The notes beneath the pieces were generated by a model. The model made no database searches. It was given only the letters and a program-made list of their open reading frames with translations, and was not told the origin of the DNA. A program made the translations under genes and the position numbers. Shown here piece after piece: positions 21,481 to 46,878 of a DNA stretch of 64,000 nt. Every line of letters begins with the position of its first letter. The first letter of the stretch is position 1. Source of the stretch: Butyrivibrio sp. (GTDB lineage Bacteria; Bacillota; Clostridia; Lachnospirales; Lachnospiraceae); contig SVFZ01000106.1 in assembly GCA_015056585.1 (NCBI GenBank), forward strand, positions 1 through 64,000, in the 5' to 3' direction.

Positions 21481-23283
21481 TTGGAAAAGGTACTGGAACT
21501 TATATCAAAAGAAGTAGGTGATGCATTTGAGGCAGCCGGATATGATCGCGAGCTTGGAAGAGCAACTGTCTCCAACAGACCGGATCTATGTGAATACCAG
21601 TGTAACGGTGCTATGGCCGGTGCCAAGAAATATGGAAAGGCTCCTTTTATCATAGCTGATGAAGTTGCAGCCAGGCTTCAGGATAATCCTGCTTTTGAGA
21701 AAGTAGAGTCGGTTAAACCCGGATTTTTGAATATCATCTTAAGCGGCGATTTCGTAAGAAACTATATCGTAAAGATGCTTCATGAGAAACGCTTTGGTGT
21801 AACACTTCCGGGACATGAGCCTACAATTATTCTTGATTACGGCGGAGCTAATGTTGCCAAGCCTCTTCACGTAGGACATCTCCGTCCTGCCATCATCGGT
21901 GAGGCAGTTAAGCGTATCCTTAAATACAACGGTAACAAGGTTATCGGCGATATTCATATGGGAGACTGGGGAACACAGATGGGACTTGTAATCACAGAGC
22001 TCAAGTGCCGTCATCCGGAACTTCCTTATTTTGATCCTGATTTTGAAGGGCCTTTCCCTAAGGAACCACCTTTTACTATTGAGGAACTGGCTGAGATCTA
22101 CCCGGCAGCCAGCGCCAAATCCAAGGCGGCTGATGATGCCAGCGAAGAAGAGAAGAAGGCTGCTAAGGAGTACAAGGCAGCTGCTCTTGATGCTACAAAG
22201 CGTATGCAGGAAGGATACAAGCCCTACAGAGCTATCTGGCACCATATTATGAATGTTTCCCTCCCTGATCTTAAGAAGAACTATGACAGTCTTGATGTAC
22301 ACTTTGATCTGTGGAAGGGTGAGTCAGACGTACACGACGATATCCCGGGAATGGTTGAGTACTTCAAGCAGCATGACTATGCTCATGAGAGCCAGGGCGC
22401 CCTGGTTGTTGACGTGGCAGATGAGAAGGATGCAAAAGAGATGCCTCCCTGCATCATCCTTAAGTCAGACGGAGCGGCTTTATATGCCACAACAGACCTT
22501 GCCACAATTCAGGAGCGTATGAAGGAGTATCATCCTGACGGAATTTACTATTTCACAGACAAGAGACAGGCTCTTCACTTTGAACAGGTATTCAGAACTG
22601 CCAAGAAGACCAAGCTGGTTATGCCTGAAACCGATCTTAGATTCGTAGGAAACGGTACTATGAACGGCGCCGACGGCAAGCCATTCAAGACAAGAGCAGG
22701 TGGCGTTATGCATCTTGAGACTCTTGTTCAGGAAATCAATGACAAGATGTATGAGAGAGTTAAGGCCAGCAATCCTGATATGCCTGATGATGAGGCTAGA
22801 AGCACAGCTAACAAGGTTGCTCTTTCAGCTCTTAAGTACGGCGACCTTTCCAACCAGCCGGCTAAAGACTACATCTTCGATATAGAGAAGTTTACTTCCT
22901 TCGAGGGTGATACAGGTCCATACATCCTTTACACAATGGTTCGTATCAAGTCTATTCTCAAGAAGTTTGAGGCAGAGGGCGGAAATGTCAAGGAAGCTAA
23001 GCTTGGTAACCCTGAGAATGAGGCAATGAAGAACCTTATGCTTCTTCTTACAAGATTTGCGGATGCTGTTGAAGGTGCTGCCAAGGACCTTGCACCTAAC
23101 AGGGTATGCGCATACATCTACGACCTCAGTAACGCATTTAACAGCTTCTACCACGGAACCAAGATCCTGGCAGAGACTGATGAATACAAGAAAGAAAGCT
23201 ATATTGCACTTATCAGCACAACGCTTAAGATATTAGAGACCTGCATAGATCTTTTAGGTTTTTCAGCACCCGAGAGGATGTGA
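21481..23283 (+). CDS. argS: Arginine--tRNA ligase
   Basis: ArgS charges tRNA-Arg with arginine. The 600-residue protein has the N-terminal Arg-specific domain (VSNRPDLCEYQCNGAMAGAKK), the class I signature HVGH at 130-133 within KPLHVGHLRPAIIGE, the DMGDWGTQMG type motif, a KMSKS substitute in GKPFKTRAGGVMHLETL, and a C-terminal DALR anticodon-binding domain ending LLGFSAPERM. The start is TTG at 21481, preceded by AGAAGG. Length and motifs are normal. Downstream lies the first structured intergenic element. Confidence 0.97.
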   Translation: MEKVLELISKEVGDAFEAAGYDRELGRATVSNRPDLCEYQCNGAMAGAKKYGKAPFIIADEVAARLQDNPAFEKVESVKPGFLNIILSGDFVRNYIVKMLHEKRFGVTLPGHEPTIILDYGGANVAKPLHVGHLRPAIIGEAVKRILKYNGNKVIGDIHMGDWGTQMGLVITELKCRHPELPYFDPDFEGPFPKEPPFTIEELAEIYPAASAKSKAADDASEEEKKAAKEYKAAALDATKRMQEGYKPYRAIWHHIMNVSLPDLKKNYDSLDVHFDLWKGESDVHDDIPGMVEYFKQHDYAHESQGALVVDVADEKDAKEMPPCIILKSDGAALYATTDLATIQERMKEYHPDGIYYFTDKRQALHFEQVFRTAKKTKLVMPETDLRFVGNGTMNGADGKPFKTRAGGVMHLETLVQEINDKMYERVKASNPDMPDDEARSTANKVALSALKYGDLSNQPAKDYIFDIEKFTSFEGDTGPYILYTMVRIKSILKKFEAEGGNVKEAKLGNPENEAMKNLMLLLTRFADAVEGAAKDLAPNRVCAYIYDLSNAFNSFYHGTKILAETDEYKKESYIALISTTLKILETCIDLLGFSAPERM

Positions 23284-23300
23284 GCGATAAATGGAATGAG

Positions 23301-23439
23301 TAAACACAGCATTGTGCTTGCACAAAATGCTGTGTTTATGAAATGACATAACGTACATGAGGAAAAAAGCAATGCGAACGAAGTGAGCGGGGCGATTTCC
23401 GAATGTACGTAGGATTGCGAGAGCGAAGCGTAGCAATCC
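23301..23439 (+). repeat. Structured modular intergenic element, copy A
   Basis: Hairpin H1 (23301-23338) has a perfect 13-bp stem and a TGTGCTTGCACA tip with two bulged A residues on the 3' side. It could also act as the argS terminator, although no T run follows. Twelve bases later comes a compound stem: ACGTACAT (23351-23358) with ATGTACGT (23403-23410), a GA/GA step, GGAAA (23361-23365) with TTTCC (23396-23400), and an inner hairpin with a second GA/GA step and a GAA loop. A third hairpin, GGATTGC (23412-23418) with GCAATCC (23433-23439), closes it. Copy B at 46213-46357 matches with compensatory changes. Confidence 0.8.
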
Positions 23440-23451
23440 GTTTTATCGCGA

Positions 23452-23543
23452 ACAAGTAGTGGGCATCACAAGTAGTGGGCATCACAAGTAGTGGGCATCA
23501 CAAGTAGTGGGTATCATATAGGTATCAAGATATAGGTATCAAA
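23452..23543 (+). repeat. Two tandem repeat arrays ending at the MATE start codon
   Basis: Four 16-bp units (ACAAGTAGTGGGCATC, the last with T for C) occupy 23452-23515. Two 14-bp units (ATATAGGTATCAAG, then the same ending in A) occupy 23516-23543, so the array ends at the base before the ATG. Each 14-bp unit carries TAGG, the only ribosome-binding-like sequence present. Copy-number changes would alter the leader length and could change expression. Confidence 0.9.
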
Positions 23544-24884
23544 ATGAATGAGAATCACATGTTCAGCAACAGGAAGCTTTTCCTGTTGCTGATTCCAATT
23601 ATTGCAGAACAATTCTTAAATTCCTTAATGGGAATGGCAGACTCCATGATGGTTTCAAATGTAGGCGCAGCAGCTCTTTCGGGAGTATCCCTTGTTGACT
23701 CCATCAACAATCTGGTTGTGCAGGCCTTTAACGCTATGGCAACCGGCGGAGTAATTATCTGTTCCACATATTTTGGTCAAAAAGATATAAAAAGAGCTAA
23801 TGAATCAGCAAGACAGGTGATTCTGGTTTCTGCTTTTATATCTTTTCTTTTGATGTTCTTATGCCTGATATTTCGGCAATCACTTTTAAGAGTAATCTTT
23901 GGCAGCATAGATGCGGATGTAATGGAAGCAGCAGGAATCTATTTCTTTTTGACTATCCTTTCATACCCGGGAATATCTCTTGCAGCTGCCGGAAGTGCCA
24001 TATTCAGAGCCCAGTCCAACACAAAGCTTCCAATGAATGTTGCTATTGTTTCCAACATTCTCAACGTGGTGGGAAATGCAGTACTTATCTGGGGCTTTGG
24101 CCTTGGAGTTTACGGTGCGGCGATTGCAACTATGGCTTCGAGGATTTTTTCTGCTATTGTGTTATTAGCCCTGCTCAGAAAAGATAAGTACCAGATCTCA
24201 ATCAGGGAGTATCACAAGATAAGACCTGATTTTGACAAGATAAAGCGCGTGCTTGCAATGGGAATACCAAACGGTATCGAGAACTCCATGTTTCAGTTTG
24301 GTAAGCTTGCTATTCAGTCTTCGGTATCTCTTCTTGGAACGGCAGCAATTGCGGCTCAGTCCATGACAAATATCTTTGAAAACGTCAACGGCGTTGCAGG
24401 AATTGGTGTGGGTATCGGACTTATGACAATTGTAGGGCAGTGTCTCGGAGCAGGACGCAAGGACGAAGCTGTTTACTACACAAAGAAGATGCTCATATGG
24501 GGATATATTGCCATTTTGACAAGCTGTCTTTTTACCTATGCGATCGCAAGACCGGTAACTGCTTTGGCAGGCATGGAAAAAGAGAGTGCATCTTTATGCA
24601 TCTTTATGCTGGGCTGGATCACTATATTTAAACCACTGTTATGGTCTCCGTCATTTGTAATACCATATGCACTCAGAGCCGCAGGAGATGTAAAGTTCTC
24701 TATGATAATTGCAACTCTTACAATGTGGCTCTGCAGGGTGACTCTGGCTACTTTCCTCATAAGAGTGGCAGGAATGGGAGCTATGGGAGTTTGGATCGGT
24801 ATGTTTGCAGACTGGGCTATCAGAGGAGTTATTTTTACCTTCAGATTCAGGAGCGGAAAGTGGATCCACAAGGTTATTGACTAA
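23544..24884 (+). CDS. MATE family efflux transporter
   Basis: A multidrug and toxic compound extrusion protein of 446 residues with twelve predicted helices, arranged as two MatE halves (about 10-165 and 235-400). Family features include PIIAEQFLNSLMGMADSMMVSNVGAAALSGVSL in helix 1-2 and the repeated topology LLGTAAIAAQSMTNIFENVNG in the second half. Such proteins export cationic compounds with Na+ or H+ coupling; the substrate cannot be told. No normal ribosome-binding site precedes the ATG: the tandem repeats run to it. A second ATG at 23559 is possible but no better supported. Confidence 0.9.
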   Translation: MNENHMFSNRKLFLLLIPIIAEQFLNSLMGMADSMMVSNVGAAALSGVSLVDSINNLVVQAFNAMATGGVIICSTYFGQKDIKRANESARQVILVSAFISFLLMFLCLIFRQSLLRVIFGSIDADVMEAAGIYFFLTILSYPGISLAAAGSAIFRAQSNTKLPMNVAIVSNILNVVGNAVLIWGFGLGVYGAAIATMASRIFSAIVLLALLRKDKYQISIREYHKIRPDFDKIKRVLAMGIPNGIENSMFQFGKLAIQSSVSLLGTAAIAAQSMTNIFENVNGVAGIGVGIGLMTIVGQCLGAGRKDEAVYYTKKMLIWGYIAILTSCLFTYAIARPVTALAGMEKESASLCIFMLGWITIFKPLLWSPSFVIPYALRAAGDVKFSMIIATLTMWLCRVTLATFLIRVAGMGAMGVWIGMFADWAIRGVIFTFRFRSGKWIHKVID

Positions 24885-45946: not shown

Positions 45947-45958
45947 AAAAACTTAAAT

Positions 45959-46030
45959 GCCTCGTTGGTCAAGCGGTTAAGACGCTGCCCTCTCACGGCA
46001 GAATCAGCGGTTCGATTCCGCTACGAGGTA
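45959..46030 (+). tRNA. tRNA-Glu (CTC)
   Basis: 72-nt cloverleaf: acceptor GCCTCGT with ACGAGGT (G1-U72 wobble) and discriminator A; D arm from GGTCAAGCGGTTAAGAC; anticodon stem CTGCC/GGCAG with loop CTCTCAC, anticodon CTC; T arm AGCGGTTCGATTCCGCT. CCA is not encoded. A terminator follows at 46061. Confidence 0.95.
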
Positions 46031-46060
46031 TTCTGTTTTTAAAACAGCCCAACCCTATGA

Positions 46061-46166: not shown

Positions 46167-46190
46167 AAGTGGACTTTCGCGAGTCCACTT
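46167..46190 (+). other. Leader hairpin with terminator-like tail
   Basis: AAGTGGACT pairs with AGTCCACTT around TTCGCG, followed by TATTTAT. It lies early in the rimP-nusA leader and could be a weak intrinsic terminator or pause. Confidence 0.55.
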
Positions 46191-46212
46191 TATTTATGCC
46201 AAGAAATAAGGA

Positions 46213-46357
46213 CTCAAAGTCATGACAAACTGTGCTTGCACAGAGTTTGGCATGACCTTGAGGACAAAACATGCATGAGGAAAAAAGATATGCGAGCGAA
46301 GTGAGCAGATCGATTTCCGAATGCATGTAGGATTGCGAGAACGAAGTGTAGCAATCC
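46213..46357 (+). repeat. Structured modular intergenic element, copy B
   Basis: H1 at 46213-46262 has stems CTCAA/TTGAG, GTCATG/CATGAC and CAAAC/GTTTG, topped by TGTGCTTGCACA with a two-base (GA) bulge on the 3' side. Six bases later come ACATGCAT (46269-46276) with ATGCATGT (46321-46328), a GA/GA step, GGAAA (46279-46283) with TTTCC (46314-46318), and an inner hairpin with a second GA/GA step and GAA loop. GGATTGC (46330-46336) with GCAATCC (46351-46357) ends it. It aligns without gaps to copy A over 89 nt, 77 identical, with all differences in helices. Confidence 0.82.
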
Positions 46358-46413
46358 GTATTTCTTGGTAGACATTAGAAGAATGCACATCCAATACCCA
46401 AAAGGAGATTCAA

Positions 46414-46878
46414 ATGTCGAAAAAAGACGATATCGAGAAGAAGACGGAAGCTCTTTTGACTCCTATTGCAGAGAAATGCGGCGTATCCATTTACGATGTG
46501 GAATATGTCAAGGAGGCCGGAGAGTGGTACCTTAGAGCCTACATCGACAAAGAGGGCGGGGTGGATATCAATGACTGTGTTGATGTCAATCATGCTCTTT
46601 CCGATGCACTTGATGTGGACGATTTTATTGATGAAGCCTATACACTTGAAGTTTCAAGTCCGGGACTTGGCAGACAGCTCAAGAAAGACAGACACTTTGA
46701 GAACAGCTTAGGACAGGATGTGGAGCTTAAGCTTTTTAAGGCAAGAGACGGAGTTAAGGAGTTTGCCGGAACACTAAAGAGCTATGATGCTTCTTCAGTT
46801 ACCGTAACTATAAATGATAAAGATGAAGTTTTTTCAAGAAAAGAGATATCAGTGATTAAGCTTGCTCTGGATTTTTGA
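46414..46878 (+). CDS. rimP: Ribosome maturation factor RimP
   Basis: RimP assists 30S subunit assembly. 154 residues: the N-terminal alpha-beta domain contains VSIYDVEYVKEAGEWYLRAYIDKEGGVDINDCVDVNHALSDALD and LEVSSPGLGRQLKKDRHF, the two hallmark stretches, followed by the SH3-like C-terminal domain. AAAAGGAG precedes the ATG. It opens the nusA operon as in most bacteria and lies behind a long structured leader. Confidence 0.95.
   Translation: MSKKDDIEKKTEALLTPIAEKCGVSIYDVEYVKEAGEWYLRAYIDKEGGVDINDCVDVNHALSDALDVDDFIDEAYTLEVSSPGLGRQLKKDRHFENSLGQDVELKLFKARDGVKEFAGTLKSYDASSVTVTINDKDEVFSRKEISVIKLALDF

Follow-up and report, generated by a model that had tools for sequence, protein, structure and literature searches.

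RF01699, catalogued as a small RNA, may be a mobile DNA element that folds as single-stranded DNA and resides behind stop codons

Two distant copies of a structured element in a 64,000-nucleotide stretch of a Butyrivibrio sp. genome (contig SVFZ01000106.1; the window) belong to the Rfam family RF01699 (Clostridiales-1). We lean, if modestly, towards the view that RF01699 is a non-autonomous miniature mobile DNA element whose sense strand folds as single-stranded DNA and which is mostly kept behind stop codons. A structured single-stranded-DNA mobile element is preferred to an RNA gene because paired positions covary without a preference for G-U and many of the loop motifs are of kinds that are stable in DNA. 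The wider claim, that this whole family of supposed RNAs is a single-stranded-DNA fold, mobile, kept at the ends of translation and undergoing paired change under DNA rules, is one to which we give slightly worse than even chances.

Results

Two copies in the window are full-length members of RF01699

A sequence-only reading of the window had singled out an 89-nucleotide element present twice, and its alignment was reproduced exactly. Copies A (23351-23439) and B (46269-46357) align without gaps and are identical at 77 of 89 positions, and the 12 differences include the four compensatory pair exchanges that had been described (G-C to A-T, A-T to G-C, C-G to A-T and G-C to A-T). These 89 bases make up the 3' half of a 164-nt element, an extent that the reading had missed, spanning 23285-23448 in copy A and 46202-46365 in copy B. 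Its view that the element is not recognisable as a known RNA class proved wrong, for in the Rfam comparison both copies match RF01699 end to end (cmscan, model positions 1-166), with 91.4 bits for copy A and 95.5 bits for copy B against a cut-off of 48. The entry is like the element described here in sequence, structure and length, and 18 of the 25 matches at E<=0.001 in the same genome score above the cut-off, that is, 16 besides the two window copies. Rfam gives the type of RF01699 as sRNA, and the table of Weinberg et al. 2010 lists the family as 'probably' RNA and probably neither cis-regulatory nor a riboswitch (PMC2864571).

Beyond the 89 bases lie a 5' hairpin with variable yet complementary arms and a closing stem, and the overall layout comprises the closing stem P1, a long hairpin P2 with a GCTTGC tip, a hairpin P3 with a GA/GA internal loop and a hairpin P4 with a GCGAAGC-type tip. 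In copy A, the 5' arm of P1 (CGATAAA, 23285-23291) pairs with TTTATCG at 23442-23448, as read from the sequence and the RF01699 consensus structure, while the inverted-repeat search places P2 at 23301-23338, with arms 23301-23316 and 23323-23338 around the GCTTGC tip. P3 (23351-23410) consists of outer arms at 23351-23358 and 23403-23410, the GA/GA internal loop and an inner stem, and P4 (23412-23439) of GGATTGC/GCAATCC with the tip GCGAAGC, according to model alignment and sequence. In copy B, P1 with an outer extension (CCAAGAAATA, 46199-46208) forms an inverted repeat with TATTTCTTGG at 46359-46368, and P3 occupies 46269-46328 (model alignment and inverted-repeat search).

Both copies, the window genes named below and the hairpin of the rimP leader lie on the + strand. 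The start of copy A is separated by one base from the stop codon (TGA, 23281-23283) of argS (21481-23283; NCBIfam TIGR00456, 409 bits), and downstream on the same strand follows a gene for a MATE-family transporter (23544-24884; NCBIfam TIGR00797). Directly behind copy A, at 23452-23515, stand four head-to-tail 16-bp repeats of ACAAGTAGTGGGCATC, the last one with one change, and GTGGGYATCA-like stretches also follow three other copies in this genome (L009, L010 and L012). Copy B lies downstream of a tRNA-Glu gene (45958-46031; ARAGORN) and upstream of rimP (46414-46878; Pfam RimP_N and DUF150_C). The rimP leader also holds a terminator-like hairpin, AAGTGGACT...AGTCCACTT (46167-46190; inverted-repeat search), and hairpins akin to it, with changed arms, were seen by eye in the displayed rimP leaders of relatives.

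Among 99 genomes searched, 63 carried a match at E<=0.001, namely all 61 of the genus (the window's own genome included) and 2 of 38 others, and 61 of the 99 had a match above the cut-off. A class-wide sample with stricter filters gave matches in 16 of 391 genomes and 11 of 222 genera. One exact pattern retrieved 44 stretches from named genomes, in records titled Butyrivibrio, Agathobacter, Lachnospiraceae and Eubacterium, and in a plasmid search two recent families (see below) matched one record, pNP243 of B. fibrisolvens D1. An origin in phages or viruses was rejected, a phage collection having given no match to copy B in distant mode and viral contigs none to one exact pattern.

The fold is under selection

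Covariation was assessed over 30 pairs in 75 distinct copies, the majority of them divergent and a few from the recent families. The results showed that 92.6% of the cells pair and that double changes occur in 25 of the pairs. Cells changed on both sides numbered 239, compared with 52.1 +/- 5.9 in 500 shuffles, and no shuffle of the 500 reached any of five measures. Related sequences can beat shuffles without any structure. Despite this caveat, selection on the fold is hardly in doubt, given the size of the effect and the slid-register control, in which the covariation score of 0.335 fell to 0.038-0.085 in six slid registers. The earlier proposal of selection on a fold and not on primary sequence is thus well supported, and the GA/GA steps and small loops on which it drew were found again in other copies.

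The fold stays Watson-Crick paired while the letters change. The P2 arms of copy A keep their complementarity with widely different letters among argS orthologues, and in seven orthologues (aligned positions, gaps uncounted, three further argS elements with an unlike P2 excluded) we counted 115 Watson-Crick pairs, 1 G-U and 1 other. The arms of P1, which lie about 150 nt apart, are Watson-Crick paired in 514 of 525 cases, with 2 G-U and 1 A-C.

G-U pairs are no commoner than A-C mismatches

RNA tolerates G-U pairs and not A-C, and on the complementary DNA strand the two swap places; selection that does not favour RNA pairing should therefore yield equal numbers of both. Stems were counted in a fixed register, with a mismatch-neutral alignment for P2, the registers of P3 and P2 being set by Watson-Crick matches only. 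The 75 copies gave 3278 Watson-Crick, 49 G-U, 50 A-C and 178 other cells, which are cells and not independent events, and with P2 excluded the numbers were 1601, 12, 9 and 28, respectively. By contrast, tRNAs of the same genome (29 distinct ones, acceptor and T stems) gave 317 Watson-Crick, 30 G-U and 1 A-C. The far greater tolerance of G-U than of A-C that is generally looked for in structured RNAs was thus not found in the element. As a share of predicted pairs, G-U made up 2.3% on the sense strand, 2.1% on the antisense strand and 8.9% in tRNA. Terminator-like stems, a second RNA control that is diluted by chance hairpins, gave 100 G-U, 60 A-C and 222 other mismatches in 270 stems.

Other ways of counting gave 23 G-U and 16 A-C cells over the 30 pairs in the MAFFT register; 24 G-U, 35 A-C and 43 others among isolated P2 mismatches of 76 divergent copies; and 1 G-U, 5 A-C and 9 others in P1 of the 15 copies from other genera. 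Compared with the commonest pair, 106 of 238 double changes were transversion-type changes, for which a single G-U intermediate offers no path. With RNA parameters the sense strand was the better folder of the two in 72 of 76 copies, and with DNA parameters in 74 of 76; folding thus seems to be the role of one strand. The authors of the 2010 paper judged the transcribed strand of one motif by its G-U content and GNRA loops and weighed RNA against single-stranded DNA for another by its UUCG loops (PMC2864571).

Loop motifs were counted in the 75 copies with an automatic tip finder, as raw numbers without a background rate. The P2 tip read gCNNGc in 71 of 75 copies and CTTG in 58 of 75. At P4 we found cGNAg in 44, cGNNAg in 8, cTTTAg in 6, gCNNGc in 3 and another tip in 14, and at P3 cGNAg in 19, cGNNAg in 19 and another tip or none in 37, which puts cGNAg or cGNNAg at 52 of 75 P4 tips and 38 of 75 P3 tips; within the GNNA loops GNYA outnumbered GNRA by 19 to 8. 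Both d(cGNNAg) and d(gCNNGc), which Nakano et al. 2002 name in their title, are published loops that are reportedly stable in DNA. GNA and GNNA mini-hairpin DNAs are treated in another paper, in which GCGAAGC melts at 78 C (PMC4686876). The loops of the element point to DNA. Tandem GA steps of this context are likewise stable in DNA. Against the DNA reading, the sense strand is also the better folder with RNA parameters, and the CTTG loop, the commonest P2 tip, is stable in RNA too. With G-U no commoner than A-C, unlike in tRNAs of the same genome, and with many loop motifs stable in DNA, the expectation of an RNA in the sequence-only reading has become doubtful.

Recent families are mobile

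We catalogued 124 copies, chosen largely as top-scoring matches, and based each count on those with enough flank. Two recent families were split from the rest by their 5' sequence. The first includes fourteen near-identical copies of a 155-bp matched part in one genome (G042), each running 35 bp further 3' to make a 190-bp unit with inverted-repeat ends, at which the identity stops (by eye). The second, found in eight genomes (G014, G020, G028, G035, G037, G056, G058 and G059), has a short form that ends with the Rfam model and a long form that carries additional sequence at its 3' end (168 and 203 bp, by eye). Exact 5-bp target duplications were present around 14 of 16 family-1 copies and 8 of 14 family-2 copies, compared with 18 of 240 (7.5%) and 8 of 182 (4.4%) in a mismatched-flank control, which set the left flank of each copy against the right flank of every other under the same boundary rule as for the real copies. 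Most duplicated targets read A-TNNNA-T (by eye), and truncated forms and forms with a 39-bp internal deletion exist. The sequence of these flanks shows that the recent families are mobile and that their movement duplicates 5 bp of the target.

Such duplications were found in 1 of 75 divergent copies, in none of 15 copies from other genera and at neither window copy. Since they are absent there, the divergent copies, those in the window included, can be called mobile by family only. The sequence-only reading had named a mobile-element end as a finding that would count against it; this applies to recent members of RF01699, with their inverted-repeat ends and target duplications, but not to the window copies, which have no duplication, and its interpretation as a whole is partly supported.

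No autonomous partner with the same ends was found in G042 when ends with up to two mismatches were searched. Only one end pair lay farther apart than the element itself, at 1.7 kb, and it encloses a gene without transposase features. At this locus (L112, G042:C1:2715476-2717207), 5' and 3' element parts flank the gene, 1.7 kb in all, without matching target duplications. It was rejected as an autonomous transposon because the flanks do not match and the enclosed gene, by its sequence, looks like a GH32 glycosidase. Y1 transposases (PF01797) are encoded in all 12 carrier genomes searched and also in 5 of 14 unrelated control genomes, and four Y1 loci that we fetched have no RF01699-like ends; IS200/IS605-type Y1 transposases are not known to leave a target duplication. 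Neither the search of G042 ends nor these four loci thus revealed the mobilising enzyme. Four recent-family copies in G042 (L040-L043) share one insert, with a hairpin of its own, inside P4. One of them (L043, the same as L097) retains matching 5-bp flanks, and the insert-bearing form may therefore itself have moved.

Most divergent copies abut stop codons in the sense orientation

In the stop-codon test, which looks in up to 400 nt of flank for the longest frame (270 nt or more) that terminates close to the element and makes no use of homology, 117 of the 124 copies were usable. Among divergent copies of the genus, 52 of 73 had a sense-frame stop codon no more than 10 nt from the 5' end, compared with 6 of 73 when the other strand and side were tested in the same way. 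The proportion was 2 of 16 in family 1, 5 of 13 in family 2 and 3 of 15 in other genera. By profile, the upstream genes include groES, rplL, rpsL, dnaK, pheS, upp, an Opp-type permease gene, a thiolase gene and, for copy A, argS, the matches resting in most cases on C-terminal fragments, for which whole-protein cut-offs are out of reach.

Several of these placements recur between species. At the argS junction, compared in the 30 loci listed of 54 genomes with a match, the full element is present in 8 (G000, G012, G014, G023, G024, G031, G033 and G036), weak matches occur in G002, G010 and G016, and remnants were seen in G022 and G035 (by eye, in all loci but G013). The core sequence of the argS element is recognisable between the window's genome and species with 73-82% identity in the ArgS C-terminus. 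In the rimP leader, by contrast, the full element is present in 1 of the 30 loci listed (of 55 genomes with a match), namely in the window's own genome, with weak matches in G036; judged by these loci, copy B is therefore lineage-specific. Its outer stem CCAAGA/TCTTGG resembles the rimP-leader hairpin of G004, G010 and G017 (by eye, in the leaders displayed), as if copy B sat inside a host hairpin.

Targeting of terminators by divergent copies was considered and set aside as no general rule, because a crude hairpin-plus-T scan, which misses cases visible by eye such as L152 and L062, found terminators for 5 of 73 in sense and 4 of 73 in antisense. Replication strand as the sole cause of orientation was also rejected, the family-1 copies of G042 having shown no bias (8 with, 5 against and 3 near a skew switch, by hand). 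The loci of G081 lie mostly with the leading strand (7 with, 1 against and 4 near a switch, by hand), a trend that gene direction would explain equally well.

Competing explanations

Sense orientation and tight spacing to the stop codon are what would be expected of an mRNA element, and they speak against the DNA reading. The main rival accordingly holds that a mobile element was exapted as a REP-like intercistronic mRNA structure, which stalls or recycles ribosomes or blocks 3' exonucleases and so tunes the expression of neighbours such as groES, rplL, rpsL, argS and the thiolase gene. The position of the 52 copies, the nature of the genes before them (dnaK, pheS and upp among them) and the orthologous placement in several species all agree with it, and in E. 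coli ribosomes reportedly stall at REPs that lie within 15 nt of a stop codon (PMC12306157). Nevertheless, we regard it as unlikely, given stems without a G-U excess and the many species that lack the full element at the same locus, argS and rimP alike. A further argument against the DNA reading is that the missing G-U excess could stem from template-switch repair acting on palindromes, since such repair removes mismatches of every kind. Such loss of wobble pairs is possible in P2 and less plausible in P1, because the P1 arms lie so far apart.

A true non-coding RNA gene, of the kind implied by the Rfam type 'sRNA', that was spread by a transposon would account for the strong covariation and for the 2010 classification (PMC2864571), but seems to us highly improbable in view of the missing wobble excess, the stop codons that most divergent copies abut and the target duplications around recent copies. 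Still a little less credible are function-free, neutral palindromes kept perfect by template switching in replication, which would fit the concerted, almost mismatch-free change of P2 arms between argS orthologues and the remnants at several argS loci, but not the pairing of the distant P1 arms, nor unpaired GA steps and loop motifs conserved although such repair would erase mismatches, nor an argS core still recognisable across species.

Discussion

If the element is, as we favour, a mobile DNA that folds, its sense strand would form three hairpins closed by the terminal stem as single-stranded DNA. Recent families move and leave 5-bp target duplications, and divergent copies, taken for long residents, mostly lie in sense orientation against the stop codon of the preceding gene; the two window copies belong to this divergent group, A following argS and B located in the leader of rimP. 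The selected state would be a DNA hairpin on the non-template strand, which is also the lagging-strand template where the gene is co-directional with replication. Transcription may expose this strand in the wake of the last ribosome, where translation no longer keeps the nascent RNA from re-annealing, or the strand may be exposed as the lagging-strand template. The hairpin would be recognised by a structure-specific DNA protein, either the mobiliser of the element or a host protein.

The recent families have the features of MITEs in being short, non-coding and multicopy, with no transposase inside, inverted-repeat ends (by eye) and a target duplication. What sets the family apart is a covarying fold of several hairpins, which has been conserved in divergent copies although target duplications are no longer seen around them. 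REP/BIME repeats with RAYT (IS200/IS605-type) transposases form single-strand DNA hairpins. Like the element, they are dispersed palindromic extragenic repeats, some of them within 15 nt of stop codons (PMC12306157), whereas the recent families here measure about 155-203 bp, possess three hairpins as well as inverted-repeat ends and are flanked by 5-bp target duplications, and the four Y1 loci examined lack matching ends. Integron attC sites, as folded single-strand DNA sites of divergent letters after stop codons, may offer a further parallel; the element differs from them in being three-hairpin, dispersed and flanked by target duplications. The RF01699 entry itself is catalogued as an sRNA, whereas here recent members are mobile, divergent ones mostly lie at stop codons and a wobble preference is absent. 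Literature searched by family name, accession and Butyrivibrio repeats gave no study of the mobility of this family.

If the DNA reading is true, an entry that has passed for a small RNA since 2010 would have to be re-filed as structured DNA, and covariation by itself would be no proof of RNA. The comparison of G-U with A-C counts, with a tRNA control, would then offer a cheap screen for catalogued 'RNAs' that are really DNA, and the family would be an example from nature of single-strand DNA structure linked to gene ends throughout a genome.

A shorter cousin element of about 124 bp, mostly near-identical across three species, carries the same GCTTGC-tipped hairpin. The copies displayed are L022 and L025 in the window's genome, L046, L047 and L049-L052 in G042, and L162 and L166 in G056, and three loci scanned gave no Rfam match at gathering score. 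In all 10 of these copies, the cousin starts directly behind the T-tract of an intrinsic-terminator-like hairpin (by eye).
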